Shown one piece after another: positions 20,961 through 57,110 of a stretch of 64,000 bases of DNA. The notes under the pieces were generated by a model. It did not search any database, was not told where the DNA came from, and saw only the letters and a list, made by a program, of their open reading frames with translations. Position numbers and translations under genes: made by a program. The stretch's first letter is position 1. Every line of letters starts with the position of its first letter. The stretch is from Hexactinellida sp. DTS-2022 (Eukaryota > Porifera > Hexactinellida): the NCBI GenBank assembly GCA_028753945.1, contig JAPNXP010000001.1, forward strand, positions 4,454,501 through 4,518,500, written 5' to 3'.

Positions 20961-21009
20961 GTAGAAGCTGTTGAGTCAACAGAAGACACAGCCAGCAGCT
21001 GTATTCCCT

Positions 21010-21843
21010 ATGGATCTCCACCTCGGTCAGTCCGTGGTCCCCACTAAGCCCGGGGACTTTGAGTACTTCCGGTCGCTCTGTGAGAGCGAGCAGGGCTGGC
21101 AACTGCATCTAGCCAGTGACGTCACTGTATACAGCAGAGACTTCCCAGACACGACTACGAAGTGTATGCGCGTGAGAGGGAGAGCTAGGGGCGTGTGTGC
21201 TGAAATCATGTTTGACAGTCTGTGTGACAACGAGTACAGGGCGAGCTGGGACACGGCCGGGACGGAGTTCTACGATATTAGTTGGCTGGACAGACACAGC
21301 TCGCTCGGGTACTACTGTCTCAAGTGTCCGTTTCCGTTCCAAAACAGAGACTTTGTGTTCCAGCGCACCTGGGGGGAGGTGCCCGGGGGGTACATAATTA
21401 TGAACCACTCTGTAGAGCTCCCCTCTCACCCTCCCCTCCCTGGCATTGTAAGAGGCGCCTCCCTCATAACCGGATACTACATGGTAGACTCCGGAGACGA
21501 GTGTATATGCACCTATCTGACTCACTCAGACCTTAAAGTGGTACTGCCTCAATGGCTCTGCGACAGAGTGGGAACCTACCTGGCACCAGGGATATTCAGG
21601 AGAATGTACGCTGCTGTGGAGACATACCAGGCCTGGAAAAGCACACACAGACCCGAGTACAAGCCCTGGCGGCACGAGGAGCAGCGGAGTCTAGAGGAAT
21701 ACGATGGTATAGAAATGCTTGCGAGCTGGGGGTTCCCACCTCCCCCACTTTGTCTACTGGGTAAACAGACTCTAGCGGAGTCTGATACAGAGTCGTTCCA
21801 TAGTGCTGATGAGGGAGAGACTGCTGTAGATGCTAGCATATAG
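21010..21843 (+). CDS. STARD10: START-domain lipid-transfer protein, STARD10-like, single exon
   Basis: 277 residues from the first in-frame ATG at 21010. The frame stays open 13 codons further upstream but only to a TTG. One START domain fills most of the protein (about residues 15-215). Family landmarks are DNEYRASWD, GYYCLKCPFPFQNRDFV, the YIIMNHSV strand, VRGASLITGYYMV and the C-terminal LAPGIFRRMYAAVETYQAWK helix that closes the lipid pocket. Order and length match STARD10/PCTP-like proteins, which carry phosphatidylcholine and phosphatidylethanolamine between membranes. The acidic Ser/Thr-rich tail (SDTESFHSADEGE) resembles the phosphorylated C-terminus of vertebrate STARD10. The coding region is noticeably GC-richer than its surroundings and has no intron, which may mean a retrocopy or simply the local intron-poor style shared with its neighbours. 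No alternative family is likely. Confidence 0.9.
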   Translation: MDLHLGQSVVPTKPGDFEYFRSLCESEQGWQLHLASDVTVYSRDFPDTTTKCMRVRGRARGVCAEIMFDSLCDNEYRASWDTAGTEFYDISWLDRHSSLGYYCLKCPFPFQNRDFVFQRTWGEVPGGYIIMNHSVELPSHPPLPGIVRGASLITGYYMVDSGDECICTYLTHSDLKVVLPQWLCDRVGTYLAPGIFRRMYAAVETYQAWKSTHRPEYKPWRHEEQRSLEEYDGIEMLASWGFPPPPLCLLGKQTLAESDTESFHSADEGETAVDASI

Positions 21844-32701: not shown

Positions 32702-33860
32702 TTCAAGTTGTTGCTATATATTGTCTATGTTGTTTTTATTCATTACTGAGTTATGAGTACTATTAATAAACTATTGGGACTGATATTTATTGGTCTGTTG
32801 TAAATTAAACTGTTATTGACAAAATCATATTAATACTTAATAGAACCAGATTGGTATTTCCAGAGGCGTTGCTTGAGGTACAGAGGTTTTAACTATCTAT
32901 AATTTTATGATGTGTCTTGGTGTAATTTGGTTACTTACTAGAACAGCAACAAGTTTCTGGTACCATCATAATACAAACTGCTCTAATCTGGGGATGGGTG
33001 TTGTGCCCCATCAGGAAAAACTGACTACGCAACTGGGCATTACTCTGTAAGTAATCAGTTATTGTCTATTCGTGTCATTATTGGGAAATAAAAGCTTTTC
33101 TCAGAGATAATAATAGCCATGCATTTTCGAGATACAGTAGAGCCTCTGAACAACGGACACTTTGGGACCGGAGTCGTCCGTTATTTAGAGGTTGTCCGCT
33201 ATTTAGAGGTTGCTTTTCTATTAGACATAGTATGCTAAATTCAATCCGTGCCACGAGGGTTGTCCGTTATTTAGAGGTTGTCCGCTATTTGGAGGGGCCG
33301 TTATGGAAGGCTCCACTGTACTTGGTTCAGAATATCATCACAAGTTGAGACAATAGAATAAGATTTAAACTCAGGATACTGAACAATAATAATATACCAA
33401 GGTAGTCAAATTAGAACTGACCCATGGCCCACTACAATGGTGTAGGAACATTACAAATCGTGTACAGACGTATAACTTCATGTAAATCTAGTCATATAAA
33501 TGGGTGTTTACTGTTTAGTCCTAAAAAAATGTGTTCAACCATATATTAACGGTGTCCGGACTGGCCAAATTACCGAATTTCTTTTATTCCACCGGAATAT
33601 TTTTTTTTTCTAAATATACACTCAATGAGATTAATATTTCTCCTCCAATCTTAATTTTGATTTTGTCATTCATAAGTGTCACAATATGACGTTTCAACAC
33701 CTCCATATATGGCAAAAATTACAAATTTCGCCGATATCCTTGAAATTTTAAGAGTAGAGTAAGAGTAAGAGTAGAGATTATCTAGTTTTTTCTAGAATTA
33801 ATATATTGCGGGGGAATACTAAGACACTTTGGAATCGAATTGGAATGTTAGTAAGTGACT
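32702..33860. other. Intergenic with one MITE
   Basis: Apart from the MITE at 33135-33318, no gene or repeat boundary was recognised. Confidence 0.4.
33135..33318. mobile_element. pogo-like MITE, GTCCGTTATTTAGAGG type
   Basis: CAGTAGAGCCTCTGAACAAC opens the element and GGAAGGCTCCACTG closes it, with TA on both sides. The interior has four copies of the motif GTCCGTTATTTAGAGG. A left-half copy lies at 56217-56330. Confidence 0.85.
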
Positions 33861-35718: not shown

Positions 35719-38700
35719 GTCACATGGTGTTTACACCCATTTATCAATTTGTTACGGGACAAAGGAACGTTTGATAAATTTCATGCTTCTTTCTATCTTA
35801 AACCATCTTGAGTTTAAGTTTATATTTTCATTATACATGCGTTTTAGACACCCCTATCACTCTAATACAATTCGGGCACCAAACACGCACACAGACGAAT
35901 AGTCATTTAATAGATATTCCAATTCATTAATCCATTGTTTGTATATCAGTCATCGTTTTAAAATTGAAATCAGCATACTCGCTTACTTTGAATTACATAT
36001 GGGATTAAGTTTATATTTCCATTATTAATGCGTTATAAACCCCCCCTTATACTCTAATACATTTCGGGCACCAAGCACACACATAGACAAATATTTATAC
36101 AAATATATATTCCATCTCATTAATCCATTGTTTGAATATCAGAAATCGTTCTGAAATTGAATAACTGTTGAGTGAAATTGAATTTTCATATAGGAGAAAA
36201 CTTTAATACAACTATGTATTAGAAATCGATTTATATAGTAGCAGCTATTGAATCAAATTGAATTATTCATTTACAATATAATACTTTATTGTAACTATGA
36301 TATCAGAAATTGATTTGTATAGTAATAGCTATTGAATGTAAATTTATTATTCATATATACTAGAATTCTTTATTGTGATTATAATATCAACAATAACTTG
36401 AATCGAAATAACACTGAATCTAATTGAATTATTCATAAATATTAAATAGTAGTTATTCATCGAAACCACGAAATAATTGCATAATTGAAAATCCAAAATT
36501 GCAGCTGTGCCGACGCATGTTCCTTTTGTGGCACTATATTTTGGTGGTGGTTTATTGATAGTGCCTCCAAAGGAACACGCTTGTGGCACAGCTGCAATTT
36601 TGGATTTTTTTCGCCATGTCATGAACACCTCATAGTGTTTAGTCTCATTAACAAGTTGTACGGGACAAAGGAACCATTGTTGATTTTAAATTATTTCTAT
36701 CTTGAACCATCTTGGGTTTAATGCCATTCATTCATTATGTATAGATAATAAATGATATAAATAGTTAATTATTTTAGCAATGTGAGTTGAGTTGAGTTGA
36801 GTAAACAAATTTCCAATTTAATTTAATTTGCTTTAATCCATTGAATATTAATATACTGTTTAAAATTGGAAATCAGCATACTTGTTTACTTAGAATGACA
36901 AAAGGGATCTAGTTTATATTCCTATTATAACCCCCTATCACTCTAATACAATTCGACCACCAAACACGCACACAGACGAATAGTCATTTAATAGATATTC
37001 CATTTCATTAATCCATTGTTTGTATATCAGTCATCGTTTTAAAATTGAAATCAGCATACTCGCTTACTTTGAATGACATATGGGATTAAGTTTATATTTC
37101 CATTATACGTAAATGCTTTATAAACCCCCCCCCCTTACACTCTAATACATTTCGGGCACCAAGCACACAAATAGACAAATATTTATACAAATAGATATCC
37201 CATCTCATTAATCCATTGTTTGAATATCAGAAATCGTTCTGAAATTGAATAACTGTTGAGTGAAATTGAATTTTCATATAGGAGAAAACTTTAATACAAC
37301 TATTGTATTAGAAATCGATTTATATACTATTGAATCAAATTGAATTATTCATATAAATAGAATAAATTATTGTAACTATGATATCAGAAATTGATTTGTA
37401 TAGTAATAGCTATTGAATGTAAATTTATTATTCATATATACTAGAATTCTTTATTGTGATTATAATATCAAAAAAAAATCCTAAATTGCAGCTGTGCCGA
37501 CGCATGTTCCTTTGGTGGCACTATATTTTGGTGGTGGTCTATTGATAGTGCCTCCAATGGAACATGCTGTTGACACAGGCTGCAATTTAGGATTTTTTTC
37601 GCCATGTCATGAACGTCACATGGTGTTTACACCCATTTATCAATTTGTTACGGGACAAAGGAACGTTTGATAAATTTCATGCTTCTTTCTATCTTAAACC
37701 ATCTTGAGTTTAAGTTTATATTCCCATTATAAATGCGTTTTAGACCCCCTATCACTCTAATACAATTCGGGCACCAAGTTGTTACGGGACAAAGGATCGA
37801 TTGATAAATTGGAATTTTGTTTTTATCTTAAACCATCTTGCGTTTAATGCCATTCATTCATTATGTATAGAAAATAAATGATATAAATAGTTAATTATTT
37901 TAGCAATGTTATCCACTGTGAGTTGAGTTGAGTAAACAAATTCCCAATTTAATTTAATTTGCTTTAATCCATTGAATATTAATATACTGTTAAAAATTGG
38001 AAATCAGCATACTTGTTTACTTAGAACGACAAAAGGGATTAAGTTTATATTTCCATTATAAATGCGTTTATAACCCCCCCTATCACTCTAATACAATTCG
38101 GGCACCAAACACGCATACAGACGAATAGTCATTTAATAGATATTCCATTTCATTAATCCATTGTTTGTATATCAGTCATCGCTTTAAAATTGAAATCAGC
38201 ATACACGCTTACTTTGAATGACATATGGGATGAAGTTTATATTTCCACTATAAATGCTTTATAAACCCCCCCCTTACACTATAATACATTTCGGGCATCA
38301 AGCACACACATAGACAAATATTTATACAAATAGATATTCCATCTCATTAATCCATTGTTTGAATATCAGAAATCGTTCTGAAATTGAATAACTGTTGAGT
38401 GAAATTGAATTTTCATATAGGAGAAAACTTTAATACAACTATGTATTAGAAATCGATTTATATAGTAGCAGCTATTGAATCAAATTGAATTATTCATTTA
38501 CAATATAATAGTTTATTGTAAGTTGTAACTATGATATCAGAATTTGATTTGTATAGTAATAGCTATTGAATGTAAATTAATTATTCATATATACTAGAAT
38601 TCTTTATTGTGATTATAATATCAACAATAACTTGAATAGAAATAACACTGAATCAATTGAATTATTCATAATTAGTAGATCTTCATCGAAACCACGAAAT

Positions 38701-39289
38701 TATTGCATAATTGAATATTAATGATTTTACGATTTTAGAAAGTTAAGGGTGAATTGTGGCAACATTGAGCCTAATTCTCAGGAAAATGAGGACGGATTAA
38801 TAAAATCGTGAAGAGCTATCAGTTGCAAAATACTTTTCTGATACTAATGATTCAAAAAAAATTGTTGTTATTGCATTTATTTTCTTGTGGGACAAAAAAA
38901 GCTAAAAGTCCCGTTAAAAAATTTCCCAAGTCGAAATTGAAAAATCAGGCCACGAAGTGCACATTAATCAACAACCAGACACCTATCCTGAAAATCTCAG
39001 AGCTCTAGTACTTATGGTTTAGCCTGGGGAGGCGACACGGAGAAAAAAATCCAAAATTGCAGCCTGTGCCGACGCATGTTCCTTTGGTGGCACTATATTT
39101 TGGTGGTGGTTTATTGATAGTGCCTCCAAAGGACATGCTGTCGGCACAGGCTGCAATTTTGGATTTTTTTTCCCGCCATGTCATCATCACTATGAAGGTG
39201 TTAAATTATTTCAAAAAGGTGTTACAGAAGGCATCGACCCTTAGAGTGGTGGAAGTTTCCATTTAGTTCACTTCATTTTAGAGATATTC

Positions 39290-39530
39290 AAGTTTGAGTA
39301 GAATATAATAGCTGATGACTCAGCATTTTTTATGTGAGTGTTGGGTCATCACCCAACATCAACTAACCCATTTTAAACATCGAATTAACAAAATTGTAAA
39401 AACACATTTTTTTAACGATCTCATCATCACTTCAAGGTGTCAAGACCCACTTGTATAGGTGGCACGTGCCATAAGGACCAATTGATAAATTGAAAGTTTG
39501 TTTCTATCTTCTATGATTTCTGAGATTTAT
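39290..39530. repeat. Repeat shared in inverse with the right end of the window
   Basis: Contains two consecutive hairpins, GCTGA-TGAC-TCAGC and GTTGGGT-CATC-ACCCAAC. It then has CAAGACCCACTTGTATAGGT and CAATTGATAAATTGAAAG. The inverse copy occupies 63780-64000 and runs off the window. The nature of the element is unknown. Confidence 0.7.
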
Positions 39531-39912
39531 GATATTTAATTAATTAGTATTAATAATTATTAATAATTTAACACCAATTTCAATGTCAACTTATATTTAT
39601 TAAGTTTAATTATTTTGTCATAAATAATTAATTAATTAATTTGGCTATCAAATTCAATTCCGCACACTCGATAACCCCTAATAAACAAATTGGGAGCATC
39701 TATATAAGTCATATACTGACTGAAATAATTATAATTAATTACGTCAGTATATTAACAGTGCAATAATATTCTCGCAGAAGTAAATATAATCACATCATCT
39801 GTCGTTGTTATGAAATATATAATCTTAGTTTTCAATTAGAAAATAGAAGCCTAGAACATGCAGTCGACACAGGCTGCAATTTTGGATTTTTTCGCCATGT
39901 CTTTTACGTCAC

Positions 39913-40179
39913 CAGTAGCAGATCCAGACATGTTGAAAAGGGGCGGCTCAAGAAATAATGCGAGCGTAGTGAGCAACTTATAAGGGGGTATGGGGGGTAA
40001 CCCCCCAGATTTTCTTTGGGTTATATACACTCAGAAGTCATTTTAAACGCTAATTTCTTTATAATGAGCCATAATTCAAACTTGAGGCTGAAGTTTCATA
40101 ATTATTTTGGCAATTTCAGCTAAATTTCAGTCAATTTCATTTTTGAAGGGTGGGCCCAGGCCCCCTGGATCCGCCCCTG
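39913..40179. mobile_element. Second copy of the same inserted transposon
   Basis: Same ends and the same GTCAC borders as 35452-35718, in the same host context. It was therefore copied along with the array unit and is not an independent insertion. Confidence 0.85.
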
Positions 40180-41468
40180 GTCACATGGTGTTTACACCCA
40201 TTTATCAATTTGTTACGGGACAAAGGAACGTTTGATAAATTTCATGCTTCTTTCTATCTTAAACCATCTTGAGCAAGTTGAGTTTAAGTTTATATTTTCA
40301 TTATACATGCGTTTTAGACCCCCCTATCACTCTAATACAATTCGGGCACCAAACACGCACACAGACGAATAGTCATTTAATAGATATTCCAATTCGTTAA
40401 TCCATGGTTGTATATCAGTCATCTTTTTAAAATTGAAATCAGCATACTCGCTTACTTTGAATGACATATGGGATTAAGTTTATATTTCCATTATATATGC
40501 GTTATAAACCCCTCCTTACACTCTGATACATTTCGGGCACCAAGCACACACATAGACAAATATTTATACAAATAGATATTCCATCTCATTAATCCATTGT
40601 TTGAATATCAGTCATCGTTTTAAAATTGAAATCAGCATACTCGCTTACTTTGAATTACATATGGGATTAAGTTTATATTTCCATTATTAATGCGTTATAA
40701 ACCCCCCCTTATACTCTAATACATTTCGGGCACCAAGCACACACATAGACAAATATTTATACAAATAGATATTCCATCTCATTAATCCATTGTTTGAATA
40801 TCAGAAATCGTTCTGAAATTGAATAACTGTTGAGTGAAATTGAATTTTCATATAGGAGAAAACTTTAATACAACTATGTATTAGAAATCGATTTATATAG
40901 TAGCAGCTATTGAATCAAATTGAATTATTCATTTACAATATAATACTTTATTGTAACTATGATATCAGAAATTGATTTGTATAGTAATAGTTATTGAATG
41001 TAAATTAGTTATTCATATATACAAGAATTTTTTATTGTAATTATGATATCAACAATAACTTGAATCGAAATAACACTGAATCAATTGAATTATTCATAAA
41101 TAGTAGATCTTCATCAAAACCACGAAATAATTGCATAATTGAATATTAATGAATTTACGATTTTAGAAAGTTAAGGGTGAATTGTGGCAACTTTGAGCCT
41201 AATTCTCAGGAAAATGAGGACGGATTAAAAAAATCGTGAAGAGCTATCAGTTGCAAAATACTTTTCTGATACTAATGATTCAAAAGAATTTCTTGTTATT
41301 GCATTTATTTTCTTGTGGGACAAAAAAAGCTAAAAGTCCCGTTAAAAATTTTCTCAAGTCGAAATTGAAAAATCAGGCCACGAAGTGCACATTAATCAAC
41401 AACCAGACACCTATTCTGAAAATCTCAGAGCTCTAGCACTTATGGTTTAGCCTGGGGAGGCGACACGG

Positions 41469-47490: not shown

Positions 47491-47897
47491 TCAGAGTTGT
47501 GACGGTCCTTGATTTTTAGGGATTACATTATACCAAGACCGGACGTGACTGGTAAATGTGTATGCATTTCCATCCGGCAATATTCTTACACCGGACCGGA
47601 TCGGACGGATATTTAAAATTGGATCGGGTCCAGACTGGCGGTCTTGTGGCCGTGTGGGACAGTTGCAACTTCTGTAGTATTTAAATTGAACATTTATTAA
47701 TCTTTATCGTATTATTAGCTACAAATATATCAGCCGTTAAGTAGAATAAAGACGTATATGTATCTTCTCAATTTTAATTTTATTGATAATCAAAAATTGA
47801 AACTCCTCGTAATTATAATTGTATTATAATTAAGAAATATAATTGAACCCAATCCTAATTTGTAATTTGGCTCATTTTGCAAACTATGTATTTTTAG

Positions 47898-49638
47898 AAA
47901 ATGAAAGCGTGATTGGAGAAGATTCTACATTGGGTAATTTAGTCTCATTAGCGGTAGAACTACAAGAGCCAGATGTTTCCAGCTTAACCGCTTTATTGGA
48001 TATGCCCAAGGCATTATTATGTGATGTGAAAGATTCAATAGATTTCTTAAAGGCAATTAGAGATTGGGGTGGACATAACCCCTTTAGATTTCATCAAGTT
48101 TTACAAGATGTTCGGTCTGATTTAATCGCAATTGCTTGTGGCGTCGCATGGTTATGTGTATCAGAGGATAATCAAAGTGATTGTGGAGAACGACTGACTA
48201 TGCAGACTTTTCTGGTATTACTGAAAACAGAGATAACGATAAGTAATTTGAAATTTATTGTTATGTTCATGGGAAGATCCTCATGCAAAACAGTGAGTTT
48301 TGAATATACAATGAAATTAATGATTCTAAAAGGTATAATTAAAAGAAATTTGTCTGATTTGATACTGTTGATGATTAGGATTAAAAGGGGAGATGTTGCG
48401 AAAAAGTTAGAAAAGTACAAACCTCTATTTTCAGGAATGGACCAGATTGAGTTCTTTAGAGAATTAGACGAGGAGTTATTCCATTCCATTACCGAAGAAC
48501 AAATTGACAATTGGGCTAAAACGAATAAAGAATTCCTATATAATAAGTATCATAAGGTAAAGGAGATGGTAGATGAAGAACTAATAGTTTTATTTGATGA
48601 AATGTATGTGGATCTAACGCTATTTCAACTTGATTTCAGTTCAAAACCTCTAAAAGAGGAGCTAACACCCAATGAAACAACTCTATCGATTAAAAAAGTT
48701 GATCAAGATTTCAGCCAGTACATACCATTTAGCGAAGAAATTACATACATTTCTTCTAATCCTGGTATTTACTATTTTACAGGTAATTCTGGATGTGGTA
48801 AATCCATTCTTTGTAACAAAGCCGTTTTAATGTATTGTAAAGACTTACTAAAGAACATATTCTATTGTATATATGTTCAGTTCAGTAATCCAATTTGGAA
48901 TTTGATTGAGGAAACAGAAGAAACACACGAGAATGTATAAAACGCTGGCTTAGTGTTGACAACGAGGAACTTTGTGAACCAAAATGTCTAGCAGATTATT
49001 TCATCAAACACAATGGAGAAGGATTATTGCTGATAATAGACGATGTAGATGAATTTTTCACAAATGTAATAATATCAAAAGAGACGTATATTTTTAAATT
49101 ATTGTCACGCAAAGTATTGACACAATCCACTATAATTTATACCGCTCAAAAAGACTTGAAAGACTTTTCATTAAATATTTGCCGACAATATCAAATCCTT
49201 GAATTTTCTCCAAAGGATAGGGATTTATACTTCCACAAACATAATATGGAGAATGAAAAAGAATTTTTAATTAAATTTAGTGAAATTTCTCAACTGTCAT
49301 TGATACCAGTCAATGCTTCGTTATTTGTATCTCTATTACGCTCAAAATTTGTCAACATAATGCAACAAGATTCAGAAATTGAAGTATTGACACAATTACG
49401 TCATGAACTGACATGTTACTTAATAGGACGAAAACTTAAACAAATGATCAGGAAAGGTGTAGTTTTGAAGGAAAATCATGAAGAAATTTATTCGTATATG
49501 CTAGACTGCTTGTACAATATTTTCATTCAGTCATATCAAGGAGAAGAGGGATTGTTTGGGACTATAGAAAGTGTCCCACTAATTATAAAGGATCGACTCT
49601 CATTAGGAACTTCGATTTTATACCGTCAACACAAATAG
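47898..49638 (+). pseudogene. Tandem-DED plus NACHT protein (NLR-like), one frameshift
   Basis: First part 47898-48940. Residues follow a splice-acceptor-like TTTTTAG at 47891-47897, and no in-frame ATG marks a start, so a 5' exon is probably missing. It begins with two death-effector-like helical bundles. The first includes LLDMPKALLCDVKDSIDFLK, and the second ends DLILLMIRIKRGDVAKKLEK, close to the last helices of DEDs. A linker and then a P-loop, YYFTGNSGCGKSILCNKAVL, follow. The second part, 49027-49638, is one base out of frame. It has the Walker B GLLLIIDDVDEF and a sensor strand STIIYTAQ, then a helical region without the HLTIQE winged-helix motif. The shift lies between about 48910 and 48940, and no intron can be fitted there. 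Caspase-like DED signalling fused to a NACHT ATPase suggests an immune or cell-death sensor. It may be a young pseudogene or a sequencing error in a live gene. Confidence 0.75.
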
Positions 49639-56206: not shown

Positions 56207-56554
56207 CAGTGGTGTACAGTAGAGCCTCTGAACAACGGACACTTTGGGACCGGAGTCGTTGTCCGTTATTTAGAGGTTGTCCGATATTTAGAGGTTGCTT
56301 TTCTATTAGACATAGTATGCTAAATCAGGCTTTTATACAGGAAAAATCTACCGCGCTCCTAGATTTAGTTAGAGCTCGTTCAGTTTTCATATTATAGAAA
56401 AATGTGAAGCCCCCTTGGCGCCCCCAGGTCGCCAAGGCTGGCGCCGCCCCTGAAGGTATTCCATATCAAAGGTCAATTAATATATAAGGAGTGTGGTGAG
56501 CATGAGACACCGTAAATGTATCTCACACTCACCAGGATACTACATGTGGTGGAA

Positions 56555-56604
56555 GTGGTTTCGTCCTATCACAAGGACTCATCAGGAGGGTAACCCTCGA
56601 CCAC
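56555..56604 (-). ncRNA. Hammerhead ribozyme 1 (self-cleaving)
   Basis: Minus strand, 5' to 3': GTGGT then C (cleavage after this base, a GUC site), GAGGG-TTA-CCCTC (helix I), CTGATGA (core), GTCC-8-base loop-GGAC (helix II), GAA (core), ACCAC (helix III with the first GTGGT). Every conserved core base is present and all three helices pair perfectly in 50 bases. Helix III is the open one, so this is a type III hammerhead. Predicted cleavage lies between the complements of 56599 and 56598. Confidence 0.92.
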
Positions 56605-56792
56605 ACTACAACTGGTCTACTCCAGTTCTAGTTACCAGTGAGCCATGCCGTTCTCCTACCACAGGTACTAAGCACAACTCACCTACACTAGGACCCCTCT
56701 AGTGCACTCCTGTCAGCCCGTCATCACATCGTGGTGAGCATGAGACACCGTAAATGTATCTCATACTCACCAGGATACGACATGTGGTGGAA

Positions 56793-56842
56793 GTGGTTTC
56801 GTCCTATCACAAGGACTCATCAGGAGGGTAACCCTCGACCAC
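56793..56842 (-). ncRNA. Hammerhead ribozyme 2 (self-cleaving)
   Basis: Identical in all 50 bases to ribozyme 1, shifted by 238 bases. Predicted cleavage lies between the complements of 56837 and 56836. Cleavage at both sites would release a linear RNA of exactly one unit, 238 nucleotides, with 2',3'-cyclic phosphate and 5'-OH ends. Confidence 0.92.
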
Positions 56843-57110
56843 ACTACAACTGGTCTACTCCAGTTCTAGTTACCAGTGAGCCATGCCGTTCTCCTACCAC
56901 AGGTACTAAGCATAACCCACCTACACTAGGACCCCTCTAGTGCACTCCTGTCAGCCCGTCATCACAGGAGTACTATCGAAACCCACCTGGATTCGCCACT
57001 GATTATACTCGCTTAATCGCCCAATTAACTTGTCTACGCAAAATTTCTTTATAGTATGAAAAATTATAATTCGACAAATAGCCACATAAGAAAACTTGAA
57101 CTAAAGGAGT

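Follow-up and report, generated by a model that had tools for sequence, protein, structure and literature searches.

Retrozymes are divided by kingdom, with LTRs and type III hammerhead ribozymes in plants and non-LTR elements with type I hammerheads in animals (PMC7229834, PMC7761336, PMC11722881; these and all other papers are cited for the portions of their text that were available). The animal elements are described as carrying type I hammerheads and as being without LTR, PBS or PPT (PMC7229834, PMC7761336, PMC11722881), whereas type III hammerheads in animals are described from delta-like RNAs and some insect genomes (PMC7936874). The origin of LTR retrozymes is left open (PMC7761336). 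In the genome of a glass sponge, Hexactinellida sp. DTS-2022 (112.4 Mb in 18 contigs), we analyzed a stretch of 64,000 nucleotides (the window) in which an initial annotation had placed a retrozyme-like tandem element with two type III hammerheads on the minus strand. Which kind of retrozyme is this animal element, and how would it move?

Comparison with Rfam covariance models (cmscan), the check that had been proposed, matched both units on the minus strand to RF00008 Hammerhead_3 over the full model (1–54), at 58.3 bits each (E 2.2e-10; gathering score 48.5), so that both type III hammerheads are borne out; these were the sole Rfam matches at gathering score within the window. The 238-bp tandem pair was likewise recovered by TRF (period 238, 2.0 copies, 98%). 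The two units differ at 4 positions. Hammerhead cleavage follows GUC (the GUC rule), and 238 nt separate the predicted cut sites of the pair. The annotated limits of the element, 56493 to 56965, were one base short at each end and otherwise held: the TG...CA ends place it at 56492–56966, with a GGAG duplication on both sides. Read in the ribozyme sense, the window copy consists of a 236-nt LTR ending CACCAC, then GA, then a 237-nt LTR, and the central region is absent. Its features are as follows.

56488–56491, no strand: target-site duplication GGAG, left, read in the sequence; relatives with an exact 4-bp duplication have the same type of boundary
56492–56728, minus strand: LTR unit of 237 bp, the 3' LTR in the ribozyme sense, with TG...CA ends; single copies elsewhere have the same ends
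56553–56606, minus strand: type III hammerhead (RF00008, 58.3 bits), predicted by the GUC rule to cut between 56599 and 56598
56599–56836, minus strand: predicted 238-nt RNA monomer between the cut sites (spacing 238), putatively cleaved out and circularized
56729–56730, minus strand: junction, GA in sense, identical to the two bases that immediately precede the LTR of the relative L078 (CCTGA, then TGTGATG)
56731–56966, minus strand: LTR unit of 236 bp, the 5' LTR in the ribozyme sense, without the last A, read in the sequence
56791–56844, minus strand: type III hammerhead (RF00008, 58.3 bits), predicted to cut between 56837 and 56836
56967–56970, no strand: target-site duplication GGAG, right, read in the sequence

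Reading frames in the window match the cadherin, actin, PHD and NHL families, as suits an animal; a protein search with the cadherin returned no close relative bearing a name. Positions 20965–21840 encode a START-domain protein with 11 relatives, the best an unnamed protein at 89% identity; both of the named ones are from the glass sponge Oopsacas minuta (63 and 60%). Of two overlapping frames at 47843–49638, the second resembles NACHT weakly, scoring under its cut-off; together they perhaps represent an NLR-like immune gene. Blocks of ~193-bp and 84–91-bp repeats, with about three occurrences, lie at 35814–41051 and resemble a dispersed satellite or a repeat-bearing transposon, and short repeats of the kind GTTGTCCG(A/C)TATTTAGAG are found at 56258–56297, near the element, and at 33176–33295.

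In the ribozyme of the window, helix I has 5 bp and a UUA loop, and helix II has 4 bp plus a fifth pair within the loop of the model. The annotation had described three fully paired helices; this is correct for helix I, with its 5 bp and 3-base loop, but helix III is incompletely paired (its second pair is non-standard in the 7-pair model, and 5 pairs form in the fold). A compact type III motif with a 5-bp helix I and 3-base loop had also been called unusual for an animal genome. The motif does depart from the norm in PMC7936874, where most type III hammerheads have a helix I stem of 6 bp and a loop of 6–8 nt, as against 5 bp and 3 nt here, but a 3-nt loop 1 is the consensus of the Rfam type III model. 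The 238-nt circle is predicted to fold with -94.5 kcal/mol, which lies 5.1 s.d. under the values for 100 base shuffles; in the predicted circular fold the ribozyme is not assembled, and the isolated 54-mer is predicted to fold as a hammerhead.

The initial annotation had allowed that core mutations in most genomic copies would count against it, and we found the opposite. We compared 33 copies of the window's family, which were found by whole-unit similarity and not via the ribozyme and which include the window's own two. Core and helices I and II are intact in 27 of them; the core is altered in three, and a helix I pair is broken in the other three. In the 28 full-length copies, 8 of 1288 cells depart from the majority letter within the 46-nt ribozyme, and 111 of 5314 do so outside it (p 1.5e-4, a value that assumes independent cells, which these are not); change in the ribozyme is 3.4 times lower than in the rest of the LTR.

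A wider, non-random sample, picked by list order and similarity, contained 112 distinct ribozyme sites at 121 loci (looser pattern, identical copies merged), and 108 of these sites fit the 54-position frame, yielding 58 distinct ribozymes. Over all pairs of these 58, 88.9% of cells are paired; 500 shuffles gave 85.6%, and at most 87.5%. Within helix II, the fifth pair is CG in 41, UA in 15 and UG in 2, and is never broken; the third is CG in 43, UA in 10 and AU in 2, with 3 broken. Helix III is frequently open at its two outermost pairs, which are formed in 11 and 30 of the 58. The sequence of loop 1 is UUA or UCA in 56 ribozymes, and that of loop 2 is UGNRAU in 54. The ribozyme of peach latent mosaic viroid has similar loops.

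These results bear on the proposal that the window pair is an accident, in which LTRs carrying fossil ribozymes became joined through their cDNA ends or lost their center, and in which the ribozyme is idle in movement today. Fossils would not be expected to change 3.4 times less than the remainder of the LTR that contains them, nor to show paired changes in helix II across families, and the same ribozyme is common to groups with different LTR tips and primer sites. We regard this proposal as unlikely, while recognizing that it accounts for two features of the window copy described below.

The first of these is the rarity of the pair. A whole-unit DNA search of the genome (50 matches listed, 40 of 305 first-look candidates scored) returned only the window's place as a match over the full 474 bases, a result that the accidental origin would explain. 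The initial annotation had suggested a search for further tandem copies; among the 30 window-family loci taken from this search, 25 contain a single unit and four contain additional pieces, the remaining locus being the window pair itself. The ribozyme itself is abundant. Sixty-four of 68 scored candidates (among 12,319 first-look candidates) reached or exceeded the Rfam cut-off in a genome search with RF00008, and gathering-score matches, 21 in all, were present in 12 of 12 relatives scanned. The pattern GGTC-N9-15-CTGATGA-N10-24-GAAACC, which has the core letters built in but leaves helix I, helix II and outer helix III free, had 239 genome matches (their places listed in part) and none for the reversed control, which excludes a chance origin of the ribozymes. 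The description of the element as retrozyme-like and type III is thus supported by RF00008 and by a large genomic family.

What had been overlooked is that the unit is, to judge from its TG...CA ends and 4-bp duplication, an LTR, and one that mostly occurs singly elsewhere. With the TG...CA ends fixed, 14 of 27 full-length rows of the window's family have an exact 4-bp duplication and none has one of 5 bp; a 4-bp duplication arises by chance in 1 of 256 rows, so that ~0.1 would be expected among 27. Three of the 14 rows (L035, L036 and L038) have common flanks. Of the 13 rows that do not have the 4-bp duplication, some form one half of a longer arrangement, as in the window pair and L079. In the TGTTAT/TGTGAC group, 6 of 16 rows combine TG...CA ends with an exact 4-bp duplication, and among the single-LTR rows of group A, many of which are halves of pairs, 1 of 16 has a duplication of 5 bp. 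Fixed boundaries were used for these counts because automated detection of TG...CA ends plus a duplication also succeeded at 428 of 2000 random places, and its count of 40 of 112 was discarded.

One region stands out for the density of its copies. At C1:13.05–13.40 Mb (including L081, L082, L106 and L108) there are nine consecutive ribozyme sites, all on the minus strand and some 20–80 kb apart; L081 and L082 have common flanks. The LTR seems to have been copied there inside a larger duplication.

Several relatives have the anatomy of an LTR, a short center, a polypurine tract and a second LTR. In L076 (C15), 332-bp repeats that are 99.7% identical are flanked by the duplication TACT, and the center ends with AAAAAGGGAAGGTGA immediately before the 3' LTR; the polypurine tract AAGGGAAGGTGA directly precedes TG in both L056 and L076. 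L073 (C2) has LTRs of 222–223 bp and a 5-bp duplication, ACATG, and duplications of 5 bp also flank L091 (ACATG), L092 (AATAC) and L093 (GTTAC). A non-coding center lies between the two LTRs of L073, L076, L091 and L093, whereas the window copy has GA alone. L061/L069 and L070 have the same R1-center-R2 form, with the first repeat shortened, at two places with different flanks and different duplications (CTAC and ATAG). The spacing from ribozyme to ribozyme is 372 in L073, 380 in L091, 371 in L093, 504 in L076, 486 in L056, and 385 in both L069 and L070.

A search with a polypurine-tract pattern gave 38 genome matches, compared with 3 for the reversed control, and many of the 38 lie in an unrelated repeat. 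Among four of these places, L097 is the 3' end of a coding element on C6 described below, L095 is a similar LTR (85%), and L096 resembles a decayed relative without a ribozyme. The patterns that retrieved further polypurine tracts and primer sites had been derived from those already known, which partly builds in their resemblance. On C11, at ~3.3–10.3 Mb, fifteen places have AAGGGAAATTGATGT, apparently an unrelated repeat that is abundant on that contig.

The second feature is the junction of the window pair. In L078, which belongs to the window's own family, the center ends with GGAAGGGAACCTGA directly before TGTGATG, and the GA at the junction is, by sequence identity, the end of this polypurine-tract box. 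This too favors the accidental origin. In our main reading, the window copy, two LTRs and GA, is probably an LTR-LTR product formed through joined cDNA ends or by internal loss. Because it has no central region, it is not a textbook retrozyme, and the pair is possibly a by-product; the copy would nevertheless still encode the predicted 238-nt circle.

The region that follows the 5' LTR differs between groups. In L073 and L063, 18 nt located one base after the LTR fit tRNA-Ser(GCU) and tRNA-Gly(GCC). Genes for both tRNAs were found in the same genome, tRNA-Gly at C1:8725891 and tRNA-Ser at C11:13500607 (the latter with a looser pattern, a stricter one having given 0). Including the added CCA, six places match Ser over 18 nt and six match Gly over 18–19 nt; these were found via patterns made from the L073 and L063 sites, so that none but L073 and L063 themselves is independent of the patterns. 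Among the twelve places, L086 and L088 are irregular and L092 has a shortened 5' LTR, and not all have two intact ribozyme LTRs. A tRNA-Met primer site was not seen in either group: group A fits tRNA-Ser(GCU) and tRNA-Gly(GCC), and the window's group has a hairpin at six loci.

No tRNA primer site of any kind was found in the window's group, and its primer is probably not a tRNA. At the six loci the hairpin stands directly after the LTR; its stem extends across the final 7 nt of the LTR, and six distinct arm sequences occur. The hairpin accounts for 9 of the 69 sites (of 112) at which a script found the LTR end; the other 60 have none, and many of these are single LTRs beside host DNA. Inverted LTR pairs are also linked by this hairpin, for example at L079, where a CGTA duplication surrounds the whole inverted pair, and at C1:7628k. 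Another fold-back form occurs at L051 (C1:6828541), where a ribozyme copy lies between inverted pieces of its own LTR start.

The position of the hairpin suggests that it may take the place of the tRNA site and prime by folding back, which would also explain the inverted LTR-hairpin-LTR copies. We therefore put forward, tentatively and at somewhat less than even odds, a fuller proposal: that these retrozymes prime their own reverse transcription, with the tRNA site replaced by a palindromic hairpin whose stem takes in the final 7 nt of the LTR; that fold-back cDNA would give rise to LTR-hairpin-LTR inverted copies that insert as units; and that bare LTR-LTR copies would lead to LTR-only circles.

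The short inverted tips, the 4-bp duplications, the many single copies and the inverted pairs could also be those of a MITE, a small inverted-end DNA transposon, in this case one carrying a hammerhead by chance. Such a transposon would not account for relatives with LTR-center-LTR anatomy and a polypurine tract, for 18-nt tRNA sites, or for boxes like those of LTR elements that encode reverse transcriptase (RT), and we consider this explanation very improbable.

Those boxes recur in coding elements of the same genome. L089 has a 467-bp LTR-like stretch that starts with TGTAGTATC and ends with ATTATTACA, followed by the Ser site and a 244-aa frame; its LTR tips and Ser site are as in the retrozymes. 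The frame had no Pfam match itself, and 14 among its 120 listed relatives carry Pfam domains, with accessions that we take to include gag, zinc-knuckle and protease families; one relative is named polyprotein, and we regard the frame as gag-like. L094 has the same Ser site as L089, and RT and RNase H 230 bp further on. The candidate partner for the window's group, at C6:3745102–3749961, has 187-bp LTRs that are 99% alike, with tips TGTGAT...ATCACA, a duplication ATGT and RVT_1 inside; AAAAGGGAAGGTGA stands before its 3' LTR, and AAGGGAAGGTGA runs directly into TGT as in L076 and L056. This element was found with a tract pattern derived from the retrozymes, which partly builds in the likeness of its tract but has no bearing on its tips, duplication length or coding content. 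Just downstream of the 5' LTR, a run of 14 nt is complementary to the element's own LTR; in the relative L101 the run measures 10 nt. We conclude from these common terminal boxes that L089, L094 and the C6 element are likely coding partners of the retrozymes. Their naming as Ty3/gypsy-type is our assumption from the LTRs and from Pfam RT and RNase H families, which we take to be typical of gypsy elements. The initial annotation had not recognized these boxes common to coding LTR elements, nor the center, the polypurine tract and, in one group, the tRNA primer sites that the relatives carry, as read from their sequences.

Taken together, type III hammerheads in LTR-like units, duplications, a polypurine tract, primer sites and boxes common with coding LTR elements lead us to conclude with good confidence that the window element and its family are an LTR retrozyme built like the plant kind, in a glass sponge, and putatively moved by coding LTR partners. 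Points that weigh against this reading are the missing center of the window copy, the lack of a tRNA primer site in its group, the rows that have no short duplication, the often open outer pairs of helix III, the unassembled ribozyme in the predicted circular fold and the shorter self-complementary run of L101. In build, the sequences match the plant kind and not the tandem non-LTR kind reported from animals. Plant LTR retrozymes likewise have type III hammerheads in their LTRs, a short non-coding center (present here in relatives of the window copy), a polypurine tract and 4-bp duplications, and they have boxes in common with Ty3-gypsy elements (PMC4918200), to which the partners here putatively belong. 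They differ in having a tRNA-Met site, in contrast to the tRNA-Ser and tRNA-Gly sites or hairpin and the animal host found here (PMC4918200), and their RNA is 600–800 nt, compared with 238–504 nt predicted here (PMC7229834). The 3-nt loop 1 and the inverted LTR-hairpin-LTR copies are peculiar to the sponge elements in this comparison. Because it has no tRNA-Met primer site, we do not place the sponge family within that of the plant LTR retrozymes.

The animal host is shared with the non-LTR retrozymes, as is a unit of a few hundred bp with hammerheads, and the 238 unit and tandem layout of the window element fall within their 150–450 bp range (PMC7229834). A non-LTR retrozyme, with tandem repeats moved by LINE or Penelope-like machinery, would carry its type I hammerheads in multimer repeats; it would be free of LTRs, of a polypurine tract and of a primer site, and its duplications would exceed 4 bp (PMC7229834). 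The sponge elements have type III and not type I hammerheads, TG...CA ends, duplications of 4–5 bp, a polypurine tract, primer sites, and boxes in common with coding LTR elements; a genome search for the type I hammerhead RF00163 gave no match, and control genomes gave none either. We give this explanation very little weight.

Least probable in our judgment is an integrated viroid-like or satellite RNA, which the type III hammerhead with the Rfam consensus loop and the stable predicted circular fold would suit. It is opposed by the fixed LTR ends, the duplications and the boxes common with coding LTR elements. A 25-base piece of the ribozyme also had 0 exact matches in a viral contig collection, and 0 in prokaryote genomes.

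Other small or self-priming elements resemble the sponge retrozymes in part. TRIMs, including those of bivalves, are small non-autonomous LTR elements of animals in which inverted repeats replace a clear primer site, and the words "hammerhead" and "ribozyme" are absent from the main text of the bivalve paper as available (PMC6934838). Self-priming elements of the Tf1/Tj1 type have a primer site complementary to their own LTR, as the C6 partner, with its 14 nt, may have too; they are protein-coding elements of yeast, whereas the retrozymes here have a local hairpin after the LTR instead (PMC4600332). The Conserved Hairpin Site of fungal GalEa elements is a formal precedent for the proposed hairpin priming, in that a hairpin, and not a tRNA site, directly follows the 5' LTR; GalEa is a Copia element, the available text makes no mention of a ribozyme, and in the sponge the stem includes the last 7 nt of the LTR (PMC5445492). 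In the open-licence PMC literature, as far as its listings, abstracts and text were available, we found no report of LTR retrozymes in an animal.

The LTR retrozyme reading suggests the following cycle. The minus strand would be transcribed across both LTRs, and each hammerhead would cut after GUC, releasing a 238-nt piece whose ends could be ligated to form a circle. RNA would be copied into LTR-ended DNA by a coding partner's reverse transcriptase, and the putative integrase of the partner would insert this DNA, producing the 4-bp duplication. The boldest step concerns the window's group, where the hairpin that some copies carry after the LTR may fold back to serve as primer, a step that fits the inverted pairs.

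An LTR build in a sponge would break the division of retrozymes by kingdom, and would mean that this build is ancient, evolved repeatedly or was transferred between kingdoms. As likely coding partners are present in the same genome, the dependence of the retrozymes on them is directly testable. A hairpin that replaces the tRNA site suggests a simple priming route for a small RNA and, if this reading is true, an early-branching animal would contain both tRNA-primed and hairpin-primed LTR retrozymes, each dependent on its own coding partner.
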